Assembly (NCBI GenBank): GCA_012799255.1 | Contig: JAAZLQ010000261.1 | Span: 1-9,934, forward strand | Direction: 5' to 3' | Length of the DNA: 9,934 bases | Source: Bacillota bacterium | GTDB lineage: Bacteria > Bacillota_G > Limnochordia > DTU010 | Shown: one piece after another, positions 3,432 to 9,934 of the stretch | How positions within the stretch are numbered: position 1 is the first letter of the stretch | Layout of the letters: each line of letters starts with the position of its first letter | Notes under the pieces: generated by a model | Databases searched by the model: none | What the model was told of the DNA's origin: nothing | What the model saw: only the letters and a program-made list of their open reading frames with translations | Translations under genes and position numbers: made by a program

Positions 3432-4970
<1,539 letters not shown>

Positions 4971-4995
4971 GAAAATAGTGCTATGACATAATCTC

Positions 4996-5012
4996 CTTGT
5001 GCTGCGTACAAG
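4996..5012 (+). other. Short hairpin downstream of guaB
   Basis: A 7-bp stem (4996-5002 with 5006-5012, one G-U pair) with a TGC loop. It is followed by TGATATAG rather than a T-run, so it is not a convincing terminator. An alternative pairing of CTCCTT (4993-4998) with AAGGAG (5021-5026) would hide the ribosome binding site of the small reading frame at 5030. Whether this matters is inference. Confidence 0.3.
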
Positions 5013-5029
5013 TGATATAGAAGGAGGGG

Positions 5030-5182
5030 ATGATCATAGGGTACTCTGATACGAGATTCTATTGGGATGTATTGCGTGGGGATGCATATCGTTATTGGTG
5101 GAATGTTTTGTCCATTCGGGGTGAGCGCCGCTTACCTACTAGCACACCCTGGCAGACAGGAGCGAATGAGTTCGGAGGATGA
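5030..5182 (+). CDS. Possible small protein gene, 50 residues, unknown
   Basis: ATG 5030 is preceded by AAGGAGGGG (5021-5029), one of the strongest Shine-Dalgarno stretches in the window, though the gap to the ATG is short (about 2 nt). The product would have 50 residues, be rich in aromatic residues (a YWDVLRGDAYRYWWNV stretch at about 11-26) and lack a signal peptide or membrane segment. The stop at 5180-5182 is followed after 8 nt by a GC-rich hairpin (5191-5210). I do not recognise the protein. The W-x-V...AY-x-Y pattern loosely recalls small YqzL-like sporulation proteins, but that is only an impression. It lies between guaB and the CPBP gene, on the same strand as both. It may instead be untranslated leader. 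Confidence 0.35.
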   Translation: MIIGYSDTRFYWDVLRGDAYRYWWNVLSIRGERRLPTSTPWQTGANEFGG

Positions 5183-5190
5183 TGTTAAAC

Positions 5191-5210
5191 AGGGGCGCAG
5201 TTGCGCTCCT
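5191..5210 (+). terminator. Terminator- or attenuator-like hairpin before the CPBP gene
   Basis: A GC-rich stem (5191-5198 with 5203-5210, one G-U pair, AGTT loop) is followed by TTCCTCTT. The weak T-tract makes full termination doubtful. It lies 24 nt before the CPBP start and 8 nt after the stop of the small reading frame, so it could partly end transcription of guaB and the small gene or modulate CPBP expression. Confidence 0.4.
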
Positions 5211-5234
5211 TTCCTCTTGGAGAGGTGGTTGTCA

Positions 5235-5897
5235 ATGGACCAATATAGAAGGCGAGCATTTTGGTTCTTCCTCGTAATGGGAGTTCTGTTTTTCACTGCT
5301 CTGGTTGCGAGAGTACTGATCCCCTCCGAAGATGTGAGGTTGGCGCTGTTAATCTGGCAACAGCTTCTGTTTGTTGTGGGGGGAATCTTAGGGTCACGCA
5401 AGGAAGTCTTCGGTCCGTTGAATTTGGGAACAGTCGCTTGGGGTCTAGTCTGCGGATTGGCTCTTTATGTGGTCAATACACTGCTTGGTTCTTTAACCTA
5501 TGTGATTGCCCGTAACATCTTAGGTAATCAAGTGGTACAGGATTTGATCTTGAGCGATCGTGCGGGAGTAGAGTCCCTCTTAACGAGTAATAAGCCCCTA
5601 ATAGTCTCCGGAGTAATGCTCCTCTTGGTTGTGGGAGCACCATTAAGTGAAGAACTGTTTTTTAGGGGCCTACTCGCGGATCTTTTGAGCGAACGTGTTG
5701 GTCCTAGAAGGGCCGTGCTTATCGCCGCATTACTCTTTACCGTTCTGCATTTTTATGTGTTGCAGTTCATCCCAGTGCTGTTTGCCGGTATTATCCTGGG
5801 CATCCTTTTTGTACGCACCGAGAATATCTTCATATCAATAATCGCCCATGCGGTGGTAAACGCAGTAACATTGCTTGCTTGGCTTTTAGCCCTATAA
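5235..5897 (+). CDS. CPBP-family intramembrane glutamic endopeptidase
   Basis: 220-residue polytopic membrane protein of the CPBP (Abi/Rce1-like) protease family. The three signature motifs are present: EELFFRG (Glu139-Glu140...Arg144), FTVLH (His172) and HAVVN (His205...Asn209), all in the C-terminal half, as in family members that cleave substrates inside the membrane. Six or so hydrophobic segments are visible (about 8-28, 35-52, 65-90, 122-135, 160-175, 179-195). The start at ATG 5235 is supported by GGAGAGG at 5219-5225, 9 nt away. A 56-residue N-terminal extension to ATG 5067 is possible by frame but has no ribosome binding site and no family counterpart. Members serve in prenyl-protein processing, bacteriocin immunity or sporulation; the substrate cannot be told from here. 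Its last 6 bp overlap the end of the convergent darA gene. Confidence 0.88.
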   Translation: MDQYRRRAFWFFLVMGVLFFTALVARVLIPSEDVRLALLIWQQLLFVVGGILGSRKEVFGPLNLGTVAWGLVCGLALYVVNTLLGSLTYVIARNILGNQVVQDLILSDRAGVESLLTSNKPLIVSGVMLLLVVGAPLSEELFFRGLLADLLSERVGPRRAVLIAALLFTVLHFYVLQFIPVLFAGIILGILFVRTENIFISIIAHAVVNAVTLLAWLLAL

Positions 5898-6212
5898 CTT
5901 CCAGAACTGATCTATGTCAATAACAAACACAATGGCACCACCCGCTTCAACTTCAACGGGAACACCAATGGCCGTTGGTAGCTCCGGTGCAATTTGAGGA
6001 ATGATCTTTTTGCGAGGAGCACACGTGGAGCGAATGATGTCCAATACTGTTTCAACCTGATTATCCTGAACACCAATTAAGAGTGTAGTGTTTCCTTGGA
6101 GCAAAAACCCTCCTGTGCTGGCCAATTTCGTCGCCTGAAATCCGCCTTCCACAAGCGCTTCCATAAGAAAGCCAACATCGTTGTCTTCTACCACAGTGAT
6201 CACTAGCTTCAT
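5892..6212 (-). CDS. darA: Cyclic-di-AMP receptor, PII-like (DarA/PstA, DUF970)
   Basis: 106-residue PII-like signalling protein of the DarA/PstA family, which forms trimers that bind cyclic di-AMP; its downstream target is not established. The conserved opening MKLVITVVEDND, the core ATKLASTGGFLLQGNTTLLIGV (residues 27-48) and the C-terminal VEVEAGGAIVFVIDIDQF are all present. T28, G35, F36, L37 and N41 occupy the ligand-contact positions described for PstA/DarA structures. Start ATG 6212 has AAGGAGG at 6220-6226 with 7-nt spacing; the in-frame ATG at 6230 would include the ribosome binding site and is rejected. A perfect 8-bp inverted repeat (6236-6255) precedes the ribosome binding site. 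It lies 78 bp downstream of the glycosyltransferase gene with no clear terminator between, so cotranscription is possible. The 3' end overlaps the CPBP gene. Confidence 0.93.
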   Translation of the reverse strand: MKLVITVVEDNDVGFLMEALVEGGFQATKLASTGGFLLQGNTTLLIGVQDNQVETVLDIIRSTCAPRKKIIPQIAPELPTAIGVPVEVEAGGAIVFVIDIDQFWKL

Positions 6213-6235
6213 GGCAGTTCCTCCTTCCATCCCTA

Positions 6236-6255
6236 ACTAGTTTGACAAAACTAGT
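6236..6255. repeat. 8-bp perfect inverted repeat upstream of darA
   Basis: ACTAGTTT (6236-6243) and AAACTAGT (6248-6255) are separated by 4 bp, 9 bp upstream of the darA ribosome binding site. An overlapping second repeat (TTTGAC/GTCAAA arms at 6241-6246 and 6254-6259) allows an alternative fold. It could be an operator or an mRNA hairpin. No T-run follows on the minus strand, so it is not a terminator of the upstream gene. Confidence 0.5.
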
Positions 6256-6290
6256 CAAATTCCTGTTAATGGGTTCTGCTTGTCACGCTT

Positions 6291-7250
6291 CTAGCTTTCT
6301 AGAATCCCTTTATAAATAAGGGCAAGTTTTTCTGCCATCTTTTTGCTGGAAAAATGTTCACTAGCGTATTGCCTTCCGAAGTTACCTAAGGCCTGAAGGC
6401 GCTCGATCGATGGATCCTTCAGATCTCCACTGGCACTTTGAGAACAGTACTCGCGTTTTGAAGTCCTGCCACTAAAGTTTGTTTGTCGAAGTAGCTCGAC
6501 GTTTTCAGGTGTGACCAAGCCGTCGGAGTATGTGCCCAAAATCCACACTGCGGAGTTTGCTGCCATTCCTTCTCTGATTGCCCTTCCGGTCCCGACCACT
6601 AGATCTGCCTGTTTTAGTAAGGGCCACACATCGTTGACCCAACCGAGGTGTTTGACTCCTTTAAACCGCCAATTACCTGCACTGGTAACCTTCCAACCCC
6701 AATCAAGGAGATCCCGTGATATGCGGCGGAAGTTCTCCTCTTTTTCCGCAGTTACCTGGGCTAATATCAGAGCACGTTTTTGCCAGGGTTTTCGGAAGTG
6801 GTTCGGTAAAGGTATATTAACACCATTTTCCACCACGAAGGTTGGTACAGAAAGATTAGAAAAAAAGGCTTTCATTTCCTCACTTATTAAAACGACAGCG
6901 CTTTGTTCCTGCAATAGTTCACGAGGTTCAAAGTCTAGGTAATGAACTGTGGTCAGGGTCCGAACTTGTAGGTGCTGACCTAAATCGATGGTAGCGGCTA
7001 GGGTGTGGGCAGAATGGTTATGGATGATATCCGGTTGCCATTCTACCAGGTGCTTATAGAGTTTACGGGGGTCAGAGGTCGTGAGATAGAGTATCCTTCT
7101 TGCGTTTAACCACTGAACATAAATTGGATCATGGAGCTGAGTAATAACTAGCATCACTTGGTGTCCTTGGCGGATTAGTTCTGCACAGAGATCCGCCACA
7201 TGGGTTGTCTGCCCGTTTTTATAGAACCGCGTTATGATCAGAACTCGCAC
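6291..7250 (-). CDS. GT4-type (GT-B fold) glycosyltransferase
   Basis: 319-residue cytoplasmic or membrane-associated glycosyltransferase. It has an N-terminal acceptor domain starting MRVLIITRFYKNGQTTHVADL (the glycine-loop equivalent has N-G-Q-T) with the sugar-binding-cleft motif DIIHNHSAH (about 74-82), then ENGVNIP (about 141-147) at the interdomain hinge. The C-terminal nucleotide-sugar domain carries GTGRAIREGMA (about 220-230), the donor-binding region of GT4 enzymes. The segment GLVTPEN...NFSGR (about 244-262) resembles a Bacillota subgroup of GT4 proteins. At 319 residues it is a little shorter than most GT4 enzymes, and the second Glu of the usual E-x7-E motif is not obvious (NSAVWILG replaces the common G-x-P-V-V). 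GTG 7250 has AAGGGAG at 7258-7264 with 7-nt spacing. Donor and acceptor are unknown; a cell-surface or spore-surface glycan is a guess. Confidence 0.82.
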   Translation of the reverse strand: MRVLIITRFYKNGQTTHVADLCAELIRQGHQVMLVITQLHDPIYVQWLNARRILYLTTSDPRKLYKHLVEWQPDIIHNHSAHTLAATIDLGQHLQVRTLTTVHYLDFEPRELLQEQSAVVLISEEMKAFFSNLSVPTFVVENGVNIPLPNHFRKPWQKRALILAQVTAEKEENFRRISRDLLDWGWKVTSAGNWRFKGVKHLGWVNDVWPLLKQADLVVGTGRAIREGMAANSAVWILGTYSDGLVTPENVELLRQTNFSGRTSKREYCSQSASGDLKDPSIERLQALGNFGRQYASEHFSSKKMAEKLALIYKGILES

Positions 7251-7324: not shown

Positions 7325-7903
7325 TTAGCGGTGCTCTCTAACAGGTTGTGGTGGAAATGGGGGCCAAAAAGCACCAGACTCAGCCAGCTCGAACCACTCT
7401 GCGCAGCCTATCGGTGATACTTGCTCGCATTCTGGTGGTTCGGGAGCGAAGCGGGCCATGACCTCCAACTGGACTAGGGCAACAGCCTTTAGTACTAGGT
7501 AAATACCTACGTCACATTCGATGACTGTGCCGCCATCTACAGCCCGGCAATTCAAGCAGCGGATCAAAGGAAGAACAACTGTACCCATTCCGGGTAAGGC
7601 ACCTTCTACCCGTACACCCCGGCGACGGTATTGGGCCGTCTGCTGAATGAACTGAGTCATTCCGTTACTGTCGTATTCCACGTTCATAATAAAGGTGACA
7701 ACAACGTCCATCTCATTTGGCCCCACAATAGTTGCCTCGGCTACAATATCGGTAACATTACAGTCCACGATATTGACCGCTAACGGGAATGTGGGGGGAA
7801 TCGGGATTCGATAGGTAGGACAGTCAATAATAGAACATTCGTTGTAGACCTTATTTACATAAATTACCTCCCGTTGAAAGTCAGGTTCGTAATCACACTT
7901 CAT
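7325..7903 (-). CDS. Cys-rich beta-strand protein of unknown function, possibly spore-surface
   Basis: 192 residues from ATG 7903, chosen because AAAGGAGG at 7911-7918 lies 7 nt away; a longer reading to 7996 has no such site and would contain the promoter. I see no signal peptide and no membrane segment. The protein opens with a charged segment and a VNKVYNECSIIDCP motif, then alternates short hydrophobic beta-type stretches (about 41-75, 98-150), and ends in a Pro/aromatic tail (FWPPFPPQP). There are nine Cys (3, 23, 28, 48, 116, 119, 130, 159, 167), including a CLNC pair. The pattern recalls DUF3794/SPOCS-type and other Clostridia spore-envelope proteins that start with a K-V-Y-x-x-C motif, but I cannot prove membership. 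A sporulation-type -10 sequence upstream supports mother-cell expression. Divergent from the propeller gene. Confidence 0.75.
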   Translation of the reverse strand: MKCDYEPDFQREVIYVNKVYNECSIIDCPTYRIPIPPTFPLAVNIVDCNVTDIVAEATIVGPNEMDVVVTFIMNVEYDSNGMTQFIQQTAQYRRRGVRVEGALPGMGTVVLPLIRCLNCRAVDGGTVIECDVGIYLVLKAVALVQLEVMARFAPEPPECEQVSPIGCAEWFELAESGAFWPPFPPQPVREHR

Positions 7904-7926
7904 CCGTAATCCTCCTTTCTCTAAAC

Positions 7927-7953
7927 CATAGTATGCCGGCAGTGAAACGGGGT
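7927..7953 (-). promoter_or_regulatory. Candidate sporulation promoter (sigma-K-like) of the Cys-rich gene
   Basis: On the minus strand AC (7952-7953), a 16-bp spacer and CATACTATG (7927-7935) match the sigma-K pattern AC-N16-CATAnnnTA except for the final base. The -10 also contains CATACTA, the sigma-G/F form, but no matching forespore -35 is seen. Transcription would start around 7919-7921, directly before the ribosome binding site. Confidence 0.45.
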
Positions 7954-7993
7954 GCGTATCTTGGCGGAAAATGTCTGAATGTCCAGGCCCTTG

Positions 7994-8002
7994 CATACCT
8001 TA
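7994..8002 (+). promoter_or_regulatory. Candidate mother-cell-type -10 element of the propeller gene
   Basis: CATACCTTA is a full match to the sigma-K -10 CATAnnnTA and near the sigma-E form CATACANT. No clear -35 (AC or ATA type) is found at the right distance, so it rests on the -10 alone. It lies 20 bp before ATG 8022, and the GAGGGGG ribosome binding site is at 8008-8014. Confidence 0.3.
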
Positions 8003-8021: not shown

Positions 8022-9338
8022 ATGTTAATTAGATTAAGTCATCAAAAATTCAGTACTGTGGAACTACGCGGGGAATCGTTAATAATCCACTCTATGCAGG
8101 GTGAGGGCAGGGTGTTACGGGAGAACGTGAAAGATGTTGTGGCGACTATGCAAGATAGTCAAATCCGTATCGTGGCATTTCTTAACGGTGATTATGCTTG
8201 GTTTTTCAGCGGGCGGGATGAATTGCAGAGTGAAATGGTTGAACTAGGTCAACCTTACGGTGGTGGAGGTCAATTGGTTACAGATGGACTGGGAAATAGT
8301 CATCTCTTCTACTTTGTAAATCAGTCTCCAGGCCATAGTGCACTATTACGTCATCAGGTCTTTAGTGGCGAGTGGTCAAAACCACAAACAGTGTCCACCA
8401 ACGTATTTCCAGGAAACTCAAGTTACAGTGCTAGCTGGCATGACGATCACTATTTGCACTTGGTCTACTTGGGGCACAACGATCAACACCTGCTCTACCG
8501 AGTGTACAACATGGAACATGGTGTGTGGAGTGGTGCAGTAAGTTTCTCAGAAGCCCGTTGCAGTTATCCACAATTGATTTCAGCGGATAGATTGTATCTT
8601 TTCTGGCAGGAAGAAACTGACCCAATAAGTATTAGAGTTCGGGAAAAAGATCAGACCTGGTCTTCGACGAAGCAAGTTTCCACAGGTGAGTATCATGCTG
8701 CTAGTGTGGGTTATTCATTCGAAGACAATAATTGGAGTGTTTTTTGGATGGAAGGGAGTCACTTTTACAAAGCCTCTTTCGGAGAATGGTCTCAGCGGGA
8801 GCAAGTTGACCGTGCAGATTTTGATTATGCTTGGTTTCTGCATGGAGGTCTCACCATCCCCATGTATACGTCCAAACAGGTGACTGAACCCGCCCCCGTC
8901 CCTGCTGCTCGGACTGGAGAGGCGGAGTCAGTGGTGAAACACCCAGAACCGATAGTTGTACCCCAGTCGGAAGAGAAGCAGCAAGAACAGCAGAGAAGAG
9001 AATCTGAAGAGGCCAAGTTACAGGCCGCTTTTATCGAAAAGGCATTTCGGACGTTAAAGGAATGGGAAACAGTAAGGGAAGAAATGGATAAGTGGAAAAG
9101 GGAGTTTCGGTTGCCCGATCCAGTGGATCTCACCCCTTTGACGACTAGGCTGGAACGTCTAGAAAGGCGCTTTGTTAGTTTAAAGCAGAATCAGGAGCAA
9201 GCCATGGCACAATGGGAAGTAAGTGTGCAGAAGACAGAGGAAGAGCTGTTTAAAGCTAGAGCTCGCTTGCGGGAGTTGGAGGATGCTGAAAAAAGGAAAG
9301 CTCCTAGTCTCTGGCGAAGGGTTCTTGGTCGAGGATGA
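8022..9338 (+). CDS. Predicted beta-propeller + C-terminal coiled-coil protein, unknown function
   Basis: 438 residues, no signal peptide or membrane segment, so probably cytoplasmic (in a spore former, possibly mother-cell or spore-surface). Residues about 1-285 are beta-rich with at least four repeats whose end is marked by a G-x-W-S or similar turn (Trp at 118, 169, 213 and 256; spacing 51, 44 and 43), as in sialidase/BNR-like or other beta-propeller blades; LHLVYL, LYLFWQE and WSVFWMEG form the matching inner strands. A Pro/Glu linker (about 286-320) leads to a highly charged helical region (about 315-425, Q/E/K/R-rich with heptad-like LERLERRFVSL) and a basic end (LWRRVLGRG). ATG 8022 follows GAGGGGG at 8008-8014. 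I do not recognise the family. It is followed after 40 bp by the candidate selenoprotein gene, in the same direction. Confidence 0.82.
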   Translation: MLIRLSHQKFSTVELRGESLIIHSMQGEGRVLRENVKDVVATMQDSQIRIVAFLNGDYAWFFSGRDELQSEMVELGQPYGGGGQLVTDGLGNSHLFYFVNQSPGHSALLRHQVFSGEWSKPQTVSTNVFPGNSSYSASWHDDHYLHLVYLGHNDQHLLYRVYNMEHGVWSGAVSFSEARCSYPQLISADRLYLFWQEETDPISIRVREKDQTWSSTKQVSTGEYHAASVGYSFEDNNWSVFWMEGSHFYKASFGEWSQREQVDRADFDYAWFLHGGLTIPMYTSKQVTEPAPVPAARTGEAESVVKHPEPIVVPQSEEKQQEQQRRESEEAKLQAAFIEKAFRTLKEWETVREEMDKWKREFRLPDPVDLTPLTTRLERLERRFVSLKQNQEQAMAQWEVSVQKTEEELFKARARLRELEDAEKRKAPSLWRRVLGRG

Positions 9339-9378
9339 TACATATACTAACCAAGGACTTGAACACGGGGGGCTAGAA

Positions 9379-9669
9379 ATGGAAGTAATTGTATGTGGGA
9401 ATCCCAGGTTTATTTTGTCATCTTGTGGTGGTTGAAGGAAAAGTTTGCCTCTGGGAGAGGCTGTAGTTTATTTGAGGCGAGGAGTAAAGAGGCGGTTTGG
9501 CTCAAACGTTACGGTAAGACTGGTAAAAGAAGACAGTTTGGAAGCCAGGCGAAGCACCTGGGGAGGAGAGAGGCCATTGCCGATTGTAGTTATCGACGGC
9601 AAGGTGTTTTCCAAAGGTAGCTTTTCTTTAAAAGCAATAATTCAAGAACTCTTGCGTTTGAGTAACTAG
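9379..9669 (+). CDS. Candidate selenoprotein: small thioredoxin-fold protein with CGGU motif (in-frame TGA)
   Basis: Read through one TGA (9433-9435) as selenocysteine, the frame from ATG 9379 to TAG 9667-9669 gives 96 residues with a complete thioredoxin-like layout. It has beta-strand EVIVCGNP (2-9), redox motif C16-G-G-U19, helix (about 25-40, LGEAVVYLRRGVKRRF), strand NVTVRLV (43-49), a likely cis-Pro in RPLPIVVIDGKVF (65-77) with two more strands, and a C-terminal helix (83-94). The TGA sits exactly at the second Cys position of a CxxC motif. A hairpin at 9447-9461 provides a fitting SECIS. A GGGGGG ribosome binding site (9367-9372) precedes the ATG. The C-terminal half recalls YuzD (DUF1462)-like and redox-active glutaredoxin-like small proteins; the role is probably thiol/disulfide or peroxide reduction. 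Alternatives are a nonsense mutation or sequencing error in a CGGC protein, or a truncated start at TTG 9445, which would lose strand 1 and the active site. Confidence 0.68.
9433..9461 (+). promoter_or_regulatory. Candidate bacterial SECIS element (TGA plus hairpin)
   Basis: Eleven nucleotides after the TGA a perfect 6-bp stem begins (9447-9452 with 9456-9461) around a GGG loop (9453-9455). The loop starts 17 nt after the TGA. Bacterial SECIS elements are short stem-loops inside the coding region with a small loop that has a G in its first two positions and lies roughly 16-37 nt from the UGA, where SelB binds. A weak lower helix (AAA 9439-9441 with TTT 9467-9469) is possible. The functional assignment is inference. 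Confidence 0.6.
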
Positions 9670-9767: not shown

Positions 9768-9934
9768 TTGAAACGTCTTAGTCTTATTGTTGTTATATGT
9801 GTTCTAGTCGTTGCCCCATTTGCACAAGCCAGTGCCTGGGAGTGGTGGGCACCTAGTTTGCAGCAGACACCATCTTGGAGTCAACCGAGCTGGCCAACAC
9901 CAAGCCCAACTCCCAATCCAACTCCCAATCCAAC
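9768..9934 (+). CDS. Secreted Pro/Thr/Asn-repeat protein, N-terminal part
   Basis: Partial gene running off the right edge, 55 complete codons seen. It starts at TTG 9768 with TAGGAGG (9754-9760) 7 nt upstream. A typical signal peptide (M-K-R, then LSLIVVICVLVVAPFAQA, likely cleaved after Ala-Gln-Ala or Ala-Ser-Ala near residue 21-23) is followed by a Trp-rich stretch (WEWW...WSQPSW) and then P-T-P-S / P-T-P-N repeats that continue past the window. Such Pro/Thr repeats usually form an extended linker between the membrane or signal region and a folded, often wall-bound or enzymatic, domain, which is not visible here. Function unknown. Confidence 0.75.
   Translation, partial: MKRLSLIVVICVLVVAPFAQASAWEWWAPSLQQTPSWSQPSWPTPSPTPNPTPNP
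9894..9934 (+). repeat. 12-bp tandem repeat encoding Pro-Thr-Pro-Asn
   Basis: Unit CCAACTCCCAAT occurs exactly at 9906-9917 and 9918-9929 and begins again at 9930. A diverged copy precedes it (9894-9905). It is in frame with TTG 9768, so copy-number change would lengthen or shorten the linker without shifting the frame. Confidence 0.85.

Follow-up and report, generated by a model that had tools for sequence, protein, structure and literature searches.

Does the single in-frame TGA of a short reading frame near the end of a 9,934-nucleotide stretch of Bacillota DNA (contig JAAZLQ010000261.1, assembly GCA_012799255.1; hereafter the window) terminate a gene, or does it encode selenocysteine (Sec)? 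The original prediction, made from the letters of the window alone, was that the frame at 9379-9669 is a hidden selenoprotein gene, broken only at TGA 9433-9435. The frame proved to be as described: this TGA, codon 19, is its sole interruption, and the 96-residue product begins with MEVIVCGNPRFILSSCGGU (U, Sec). In our judgement, which is not a computed probability, 9379-9669 is almost certainly a selenoprotein gene, as the conserved TGA, the selection on both sides of it, a covarying hairpin, the existence of cysteine (Cys) forms and the Sec machinery of related genomes all indicate. A scan of a genome collection yielded 10 relatives at 52-65% identity, and all 10 carried TGA at the same codon, within the motif SCGGU[RK]K.

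The distribution of the family was followed in two wider samples. In the class of one relative genome, 31 of 72 genomes had a family match, 27 of the UGA type (20 close and 7 more distant) and four with Cys only; the position of the TGA was read for 26 of the 27 (G022 was not fetched). In an even sample of the phylum, at least 67 of 398 genomes had a match, and about 24 were counted with an in-frame TGA. At most 12 candidates per genome were scored there, so that misses are not proof of absence, and most weaker matches were left unread. The tally of 24 comprises genomes with one TGA, minus G403, whose match lies inside a 987-residue frame; the position was read in 21 of them (G096, G165 and G176 were not fetched), TGA lies elsewhere in G140, and G076 and G122 carry an identical sequence. 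The UGA contexts of this sample included CYGU, CxxGGUG and CY[T/S]UG, and the other matches that were read had Cys. Five genomes (G083, G088, G167, G200 and G277) each held two family matches with an in-frame TGA. The homologues with TGA or Cys at residue 19 that the prediction called for were thus found, and in an alignment of 45 sequences the only invariant columns were 19, always Sec or Cys, and Pro68, which belongs to the PLPI segment of the window protein. A truncated call of 74 residues had also been foreseen, and the protein search indeed listed a 74-residue product for the locus (P0004). That search found 28 proteins of the core (close) group, all of 50-79 residues and therefore too short to include the UGA codon.

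Selection and RNA structure were examined in the aligned genes. Before as well as after the UGA, third codon positions were approximately 2-4 times as variable as first and second positions in the 20 UGA genes that were compared. Codons 24-27, which lie inside the hairpin, were almost frozen synonymously, with 0.13 of the maximal entropy versus 0.80 in 22 other conserved codons. The predicted hairpin, which has six base pairs and a GGG loop and whose stem starts 11 nt after the TGA, was located precisely; its loop lies 17 nt past the UGA and its minimum free energy is −8.6 kcal/mol. The available part of PMC13188914 gives as limits for a bacterial selenocysteine insertion sequence (bSECIS) a loop of 3-9 nt, a stem of 4-16 bp, a G in the first two loop positions, a spacing of 16-37 nt and a minimum free energy of −7.5 kcal/mol or lower, and the window hairpin falls within all of them. 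The expected conservation in relatives was also evident. A GGN loop was kept at a constant distance in 44 UGA rows, apart from one extra codon after the UGA in three of them (L053, L056 and L062), which was taken out of register. The six inner pairs were complete in 34 of these rows, and eight rows had five. This count excluded the duplicate genes (L027-L034, L037 and L057-L059), L070 (identical to L069), L073 (TGA at a different place) and UGA copies never fetched as loci. Among 27 distinct stem-loops and eight pairs, 83.8% of the cells paired and 35 cells were changed on both sides, values that were each reached in none of 1000 shuffles; sliding the register lowered pairing to 40-57%. Nine Cys homologues that were inspected kept one to three of the six pairs.

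The Cys orthologues linked the codon, the hairpin and the decoding machinery. L047 (G033) and L048 (G054) have TGT at the Sec codon and lack the hairpin, and keep the gene neighbourhood of the window, namely the upstream gene for a 438-residue protein, the downstream CAP-type protein and most further genes (L100, clusters 0-6; L101, clusters 0-3, 5 and 6). In a FastTree tree, the Cys form L047 was sister to the UGA form L046. At the limits used, selA, selB and selD were not found in any of the four Cys-only genomes of the class, which include G033 and G054. Nine genomes of the 10 first relatives were searched, and in eight a tRNA-Sec above 60 bits, selB and selA were present and mutually adjacent; selD was also present in eight, in seven of them with its own in-frame TGA. 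Only tRNA-Sec matches above 60 bits were counted, because the model also scores up to 49 bits on other tRNAs, and at E ≤ 0.001 it has matches in every one of the 14 control genomes (five of them with a match over cut-off). The selB model at the same E value likewise matched 14 of 14 controls (over cut-off in two), and the class and phylum counts use stricter limits, which two of the 14 controls pass. Under these limits, selB was present in 24 of 27 UGA-type genomes of the class versus nine of 41 genomes without a family match, and in all 24 UGA genomes of the phylum sample versus 242 of 374 others. Locus L103 (G027) contains two Cys-type family members approximately 2 kb apart.

The model of the protein, computed with Cys in place of Sec, had the order strand-helix-strand-helix-strand-strand-helix with a Pro before strand 3, which is the predicted topology of a thioredoxin fold. 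Its first strand (residues 2-6) precedes the UGA, as had been anticipated, and the loop that joins strand 1 to helix 1 holds Cys16 and Sec19 (CGGU). The family profile matched PDB 1xg8 (DUF1462/YuzD; Staphylococcus aureus SA0798) with an E value of 5.9e-8, and Sec19 aligned with a Cys of this structure, in agreement with the claim that the TGA stands for the second Cys of a CxxC motif. The window protein is very likely the Sec form of the DUF1462/YuzD-like family (PF07315), whose members share the thioredoxin fold and have CxxC in the place of C16-xx-U19; the window family differs in having Sec for the second Cys. By itself, the window protein scored 13.5 bits against PF07315, below the gathering cut-off of 25, which two of 10 relatives scanned singly passed: the Cys orthologue L048 (37.0) and the UGA relative L071 (29.3). 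The JGI label of the relatives P0005 and P0033 is ‘disulfide oxidoreductase YuzD’. In G140, a DUF1462-like relative (L073, 1501-1821, minus strand) has its in-frame TGA at a different place, within an N-terminal stretch rich in Cys, which may be an independent second Sec site; the relative lies 10 nt before a transporter gene that belongs to the same cluster as an SBF-family transporter gene.

Several observations weigh against this interpretation. Folded alone, the window hairpin was unremarkable (z = −0.48; 60 of 200 shuffles folded equally well or better), and its reality therefore rests on the comparison among relatives. Two of the 44 UGA rows keep just three of the six inner pairs, and of the 44, only 29 and 25 preserve the first and the second of the two outer pairs, respectively. 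The number of further pair types lay within chance (reached by 140 of 1000 shuffles), and the covariation shuffles ignore the relatedness of the sequences. We quote no dN/dS ratio because synonymous divergence (dS) had reached saturation, or could not be estimated, in many of the pairs. Confidence in the model is lowest for the loop that contains Cys16 and Sec19 (block mean 71), Foldseek returned no match for the model at E ≤ 0.001, and the Cys orthologue L047 has Tyr at position 16, so that a two-residue cycle is not universal. The evidence for the Sec machinery comes from the genomes of relatives and not from that of the window organism itself, and no selB was detected at the limit used in the UGA-type genomes G007, G046 and G050. 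Assembly gaps are likely in G007 and G050, given their at least 284 and 175 contigs, respectively, and G007 carries a selD with an in-frame TGA of its own.

These points have to be set against what the other readings of the TGA would demand. A genuine stop, followed by a separate C-terminal protein starting, for example, at TTG 9445 as gene callers predict, would agree with the short lengths of the 28 core-group proteins; we regard it as very improbable, as residues 1-18 are conserved under purifying selection, the Cys forms read straight through and strand 1 precedes the UGA. A changed code or a suppressor that places Trp or some other residue at the UGA appears just as improbable. We found nothing in its favour, the Sec machinery co-occurs with the family, and wherever an aligned homologue lacks TGA, column 19 holds Cys instead of Trp; moreover, the gene 40 nt upstream terminates in an ordinary TGA, and UGA is therefore a stop elsewhere in this genome. 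A single stop in an otherwise open frame is also what a pseudogene or a sequencing error would produce, but the same TGA in 10 of 10 divergent relatives and the selection that continues beyond it leave this explanation with a negligible probability. Among readings that accept the selenoprotein, one has Cys16 and Sec19 act like ArsD, as ligands of a metal or metalloid or as carriers of selenium or sulfur, instead of exchanging disulfides. We consider this unlikely, though less so than the preceding alternatives: the distant neighbours described below would allow it, whereas the window protein falls below the ArsD cut-offs and the clusters that recur around the window in the core group include no such neighbours.

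What was computed here is the conservation of the recoded frame, the hairpin, the alternation of UGA and Cys, the joint occurrence of family and Sec machinery, and a prediction of the fold; we infer the redox chemistry, the attacking residue and the partner. The best joint explanation, which we hold with high confidence, is a selenoprotein decoded through a bSECIS element, with a DUF1462/YuzD-like fold and a redox pair of Cys16 and Sec19. SelB and tRNA-Sec would decode the UGA as Sec with the hairpin as the bSECIS element; reduction or exchange of disulfides would most likely proceed through a reversible selenenylsulfide between Cys16 and Sec19, with Sec19 as the attacking residue. Redox exchange is the probable main chemistry, the alternative being the handling of metals, metalloids or chalcogens. 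On a broader scale, the DUF1462/YuzD-like superfamily is likely to be a large, overlooked reservoir of Bacillota selenoproteins, with Sec branches of the CGGU, CYGU, CxxGGUG and CY[T/S]UG types, an exchange of UGA and Cys that tracks the Sec machinery, and roles that extend from redox chemistry in the envelope or spore to the handling of selenium, sulfur or arsenic. Through the finding, the prokaryotic selenoprotein catalogue would gain a family whose predicted active site contains Sec, and the appearance of family genes as truncated database fragments is accounted for. The finding also provides orthologues with UGA and with Cys that keep a fixed synteny and among which Sec, hairpin and sel genes are either all present or all absent. 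Because it connects DUF1462, a domain of unknown function, with the chemistry of selenium, the function of this domain can be put to the test.

The features of the locus are collected in Table 1. Of the 50 loci compared, 22, the window included, had a homologue of the 438-residue protein gene immediately before the family gene, and 20 had a homologue of the CAP-type secreted protein (cluster 1) directly downstream, at 29-139 nt; the CAP domain itself was found in the one cluster member tested, the full-length neighbour at L010. Pfam matches in the window comprised a LysM and cell-wall hydrolase gene, a glycosyltransferase, a cyclic-di-AMP receptor and an Rce1-like protease. The genes for the 438-residue and 223-residue (7325-7996) proteins, which had no Pfam match at E ≤ 0.01, are conserved, and about 20 loci have them close to the selenoprotein gene or to its Cys orthologue. 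From the LysM/cell-wall hydrolase and CAP company, our guess is an envelope or spore-coat role. Distant UGA relatives have different neighbours. At L119 (G076, 4225-6898), the relative is flanked on one side by DUF302 and a methyltransferase and on the other by two Sulf_transp halves and TusA, surroundings that are selenium/sulfur-like. At L117, L125 and L130, it follows queC by 16-38 nt (Pfam QueC tested in L117), and a queD-like gene, named by eye, precedes queC. At L124 and L127, a gene for a pyridine-nucleotide disulfide oxidoreductase (Pfam tested in L124) precedes it by approximately 600-650 nt, and a regulator/kinase pair named by eye follows it. The distant neighbours allow redox as well as selenium, sulfur or metalloid roles.

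Table 1. Features of the predicted selenoprotein locus, in window coordinates.
Feature	Position	Strand	Remarks
Predicted selenoprotein gene	9379-9669	+	96 aa with the motif SCGGU (Sec19); under purifying selection before and after the TGA
Likely ribosome-binding G run (GGGGGG)	9367-9372	+	Ahead of ATG 9379; inferred from sequence
UGA, predicted Sec codon, second position of CxxU	9433-9435	+	TGA conserved; Cys in some homologues
Predicted bSECIS hairpin	9447-9461	+	6 bp; arms 9447-9452 and 9456-9461; loop GGG 9453-9455
Gene for 438-aa protein	8022-9338	+	Ends 40 nt before ATG 9379; ordinary TGA stop; no Pfam match
Start of secreted-protein gene	9768-9934	+	TTG 9768 by analogy with L001; cut by window end

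The family was finally compared with known selenoproteins and related folds. The suggestion that it might not have been described as a selenoprotein family was upheld insofar as DUF1462/YuzD is absent from all 119 selenoprotein families of Table 1 in the available part of PMC13188914; it was amended in that the protein could be placed as DUF1462/YuzD-like. Literature searches returned no paper on a DUF1462 selenoprotein, and an unseen report is possible since most subscription papers lay outside them. In NCBIfam 20.0, neither the window protein nor any of 20 members scanned singly had a match over cut-off; the sole selenoprotein model touching scanned members was NF047660 (HUIPC thioredoxin-like selenoprotein), with 19 of the required 105 bits in L062 only. 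NF041239 (CC/Se motif, Moorella hypothetical protein) is likewise a small CxxU selenoprotein, present in seven of 21 searched genomes of the window family, but it did not match the members scanned and its loci do not overlap theirs. On contig C22 of G238, one NF041239 locus lies within approximately 1 kb of weak, distant window-family matches. ArsD metallochaperones and MTH895/ArsE-type thioredoxin-like proteins share a related fold and a weak C-terminal profile similarity with the window protein, which remained far below the curated cut-offs of ArsD (NF033727/PF06953; 12.4 of 90 bits) and TIGR00412 (14.3 of 62 bits). According to the available part of PMC5330540, Brachyspira Sec.1 and Sec.2 (PF13192; 15.4 of 24.8 bits for the window protein) are also small thioredoxin-domain selenoproteins missed by annotation, but their Sec resides in a short extension before the domain, whereas that of the window protein occupies the CxxC place of the domain itself. 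As far as the catalogue and NCBIfam go, the family is a new selenoprotein family of a well-known kind.
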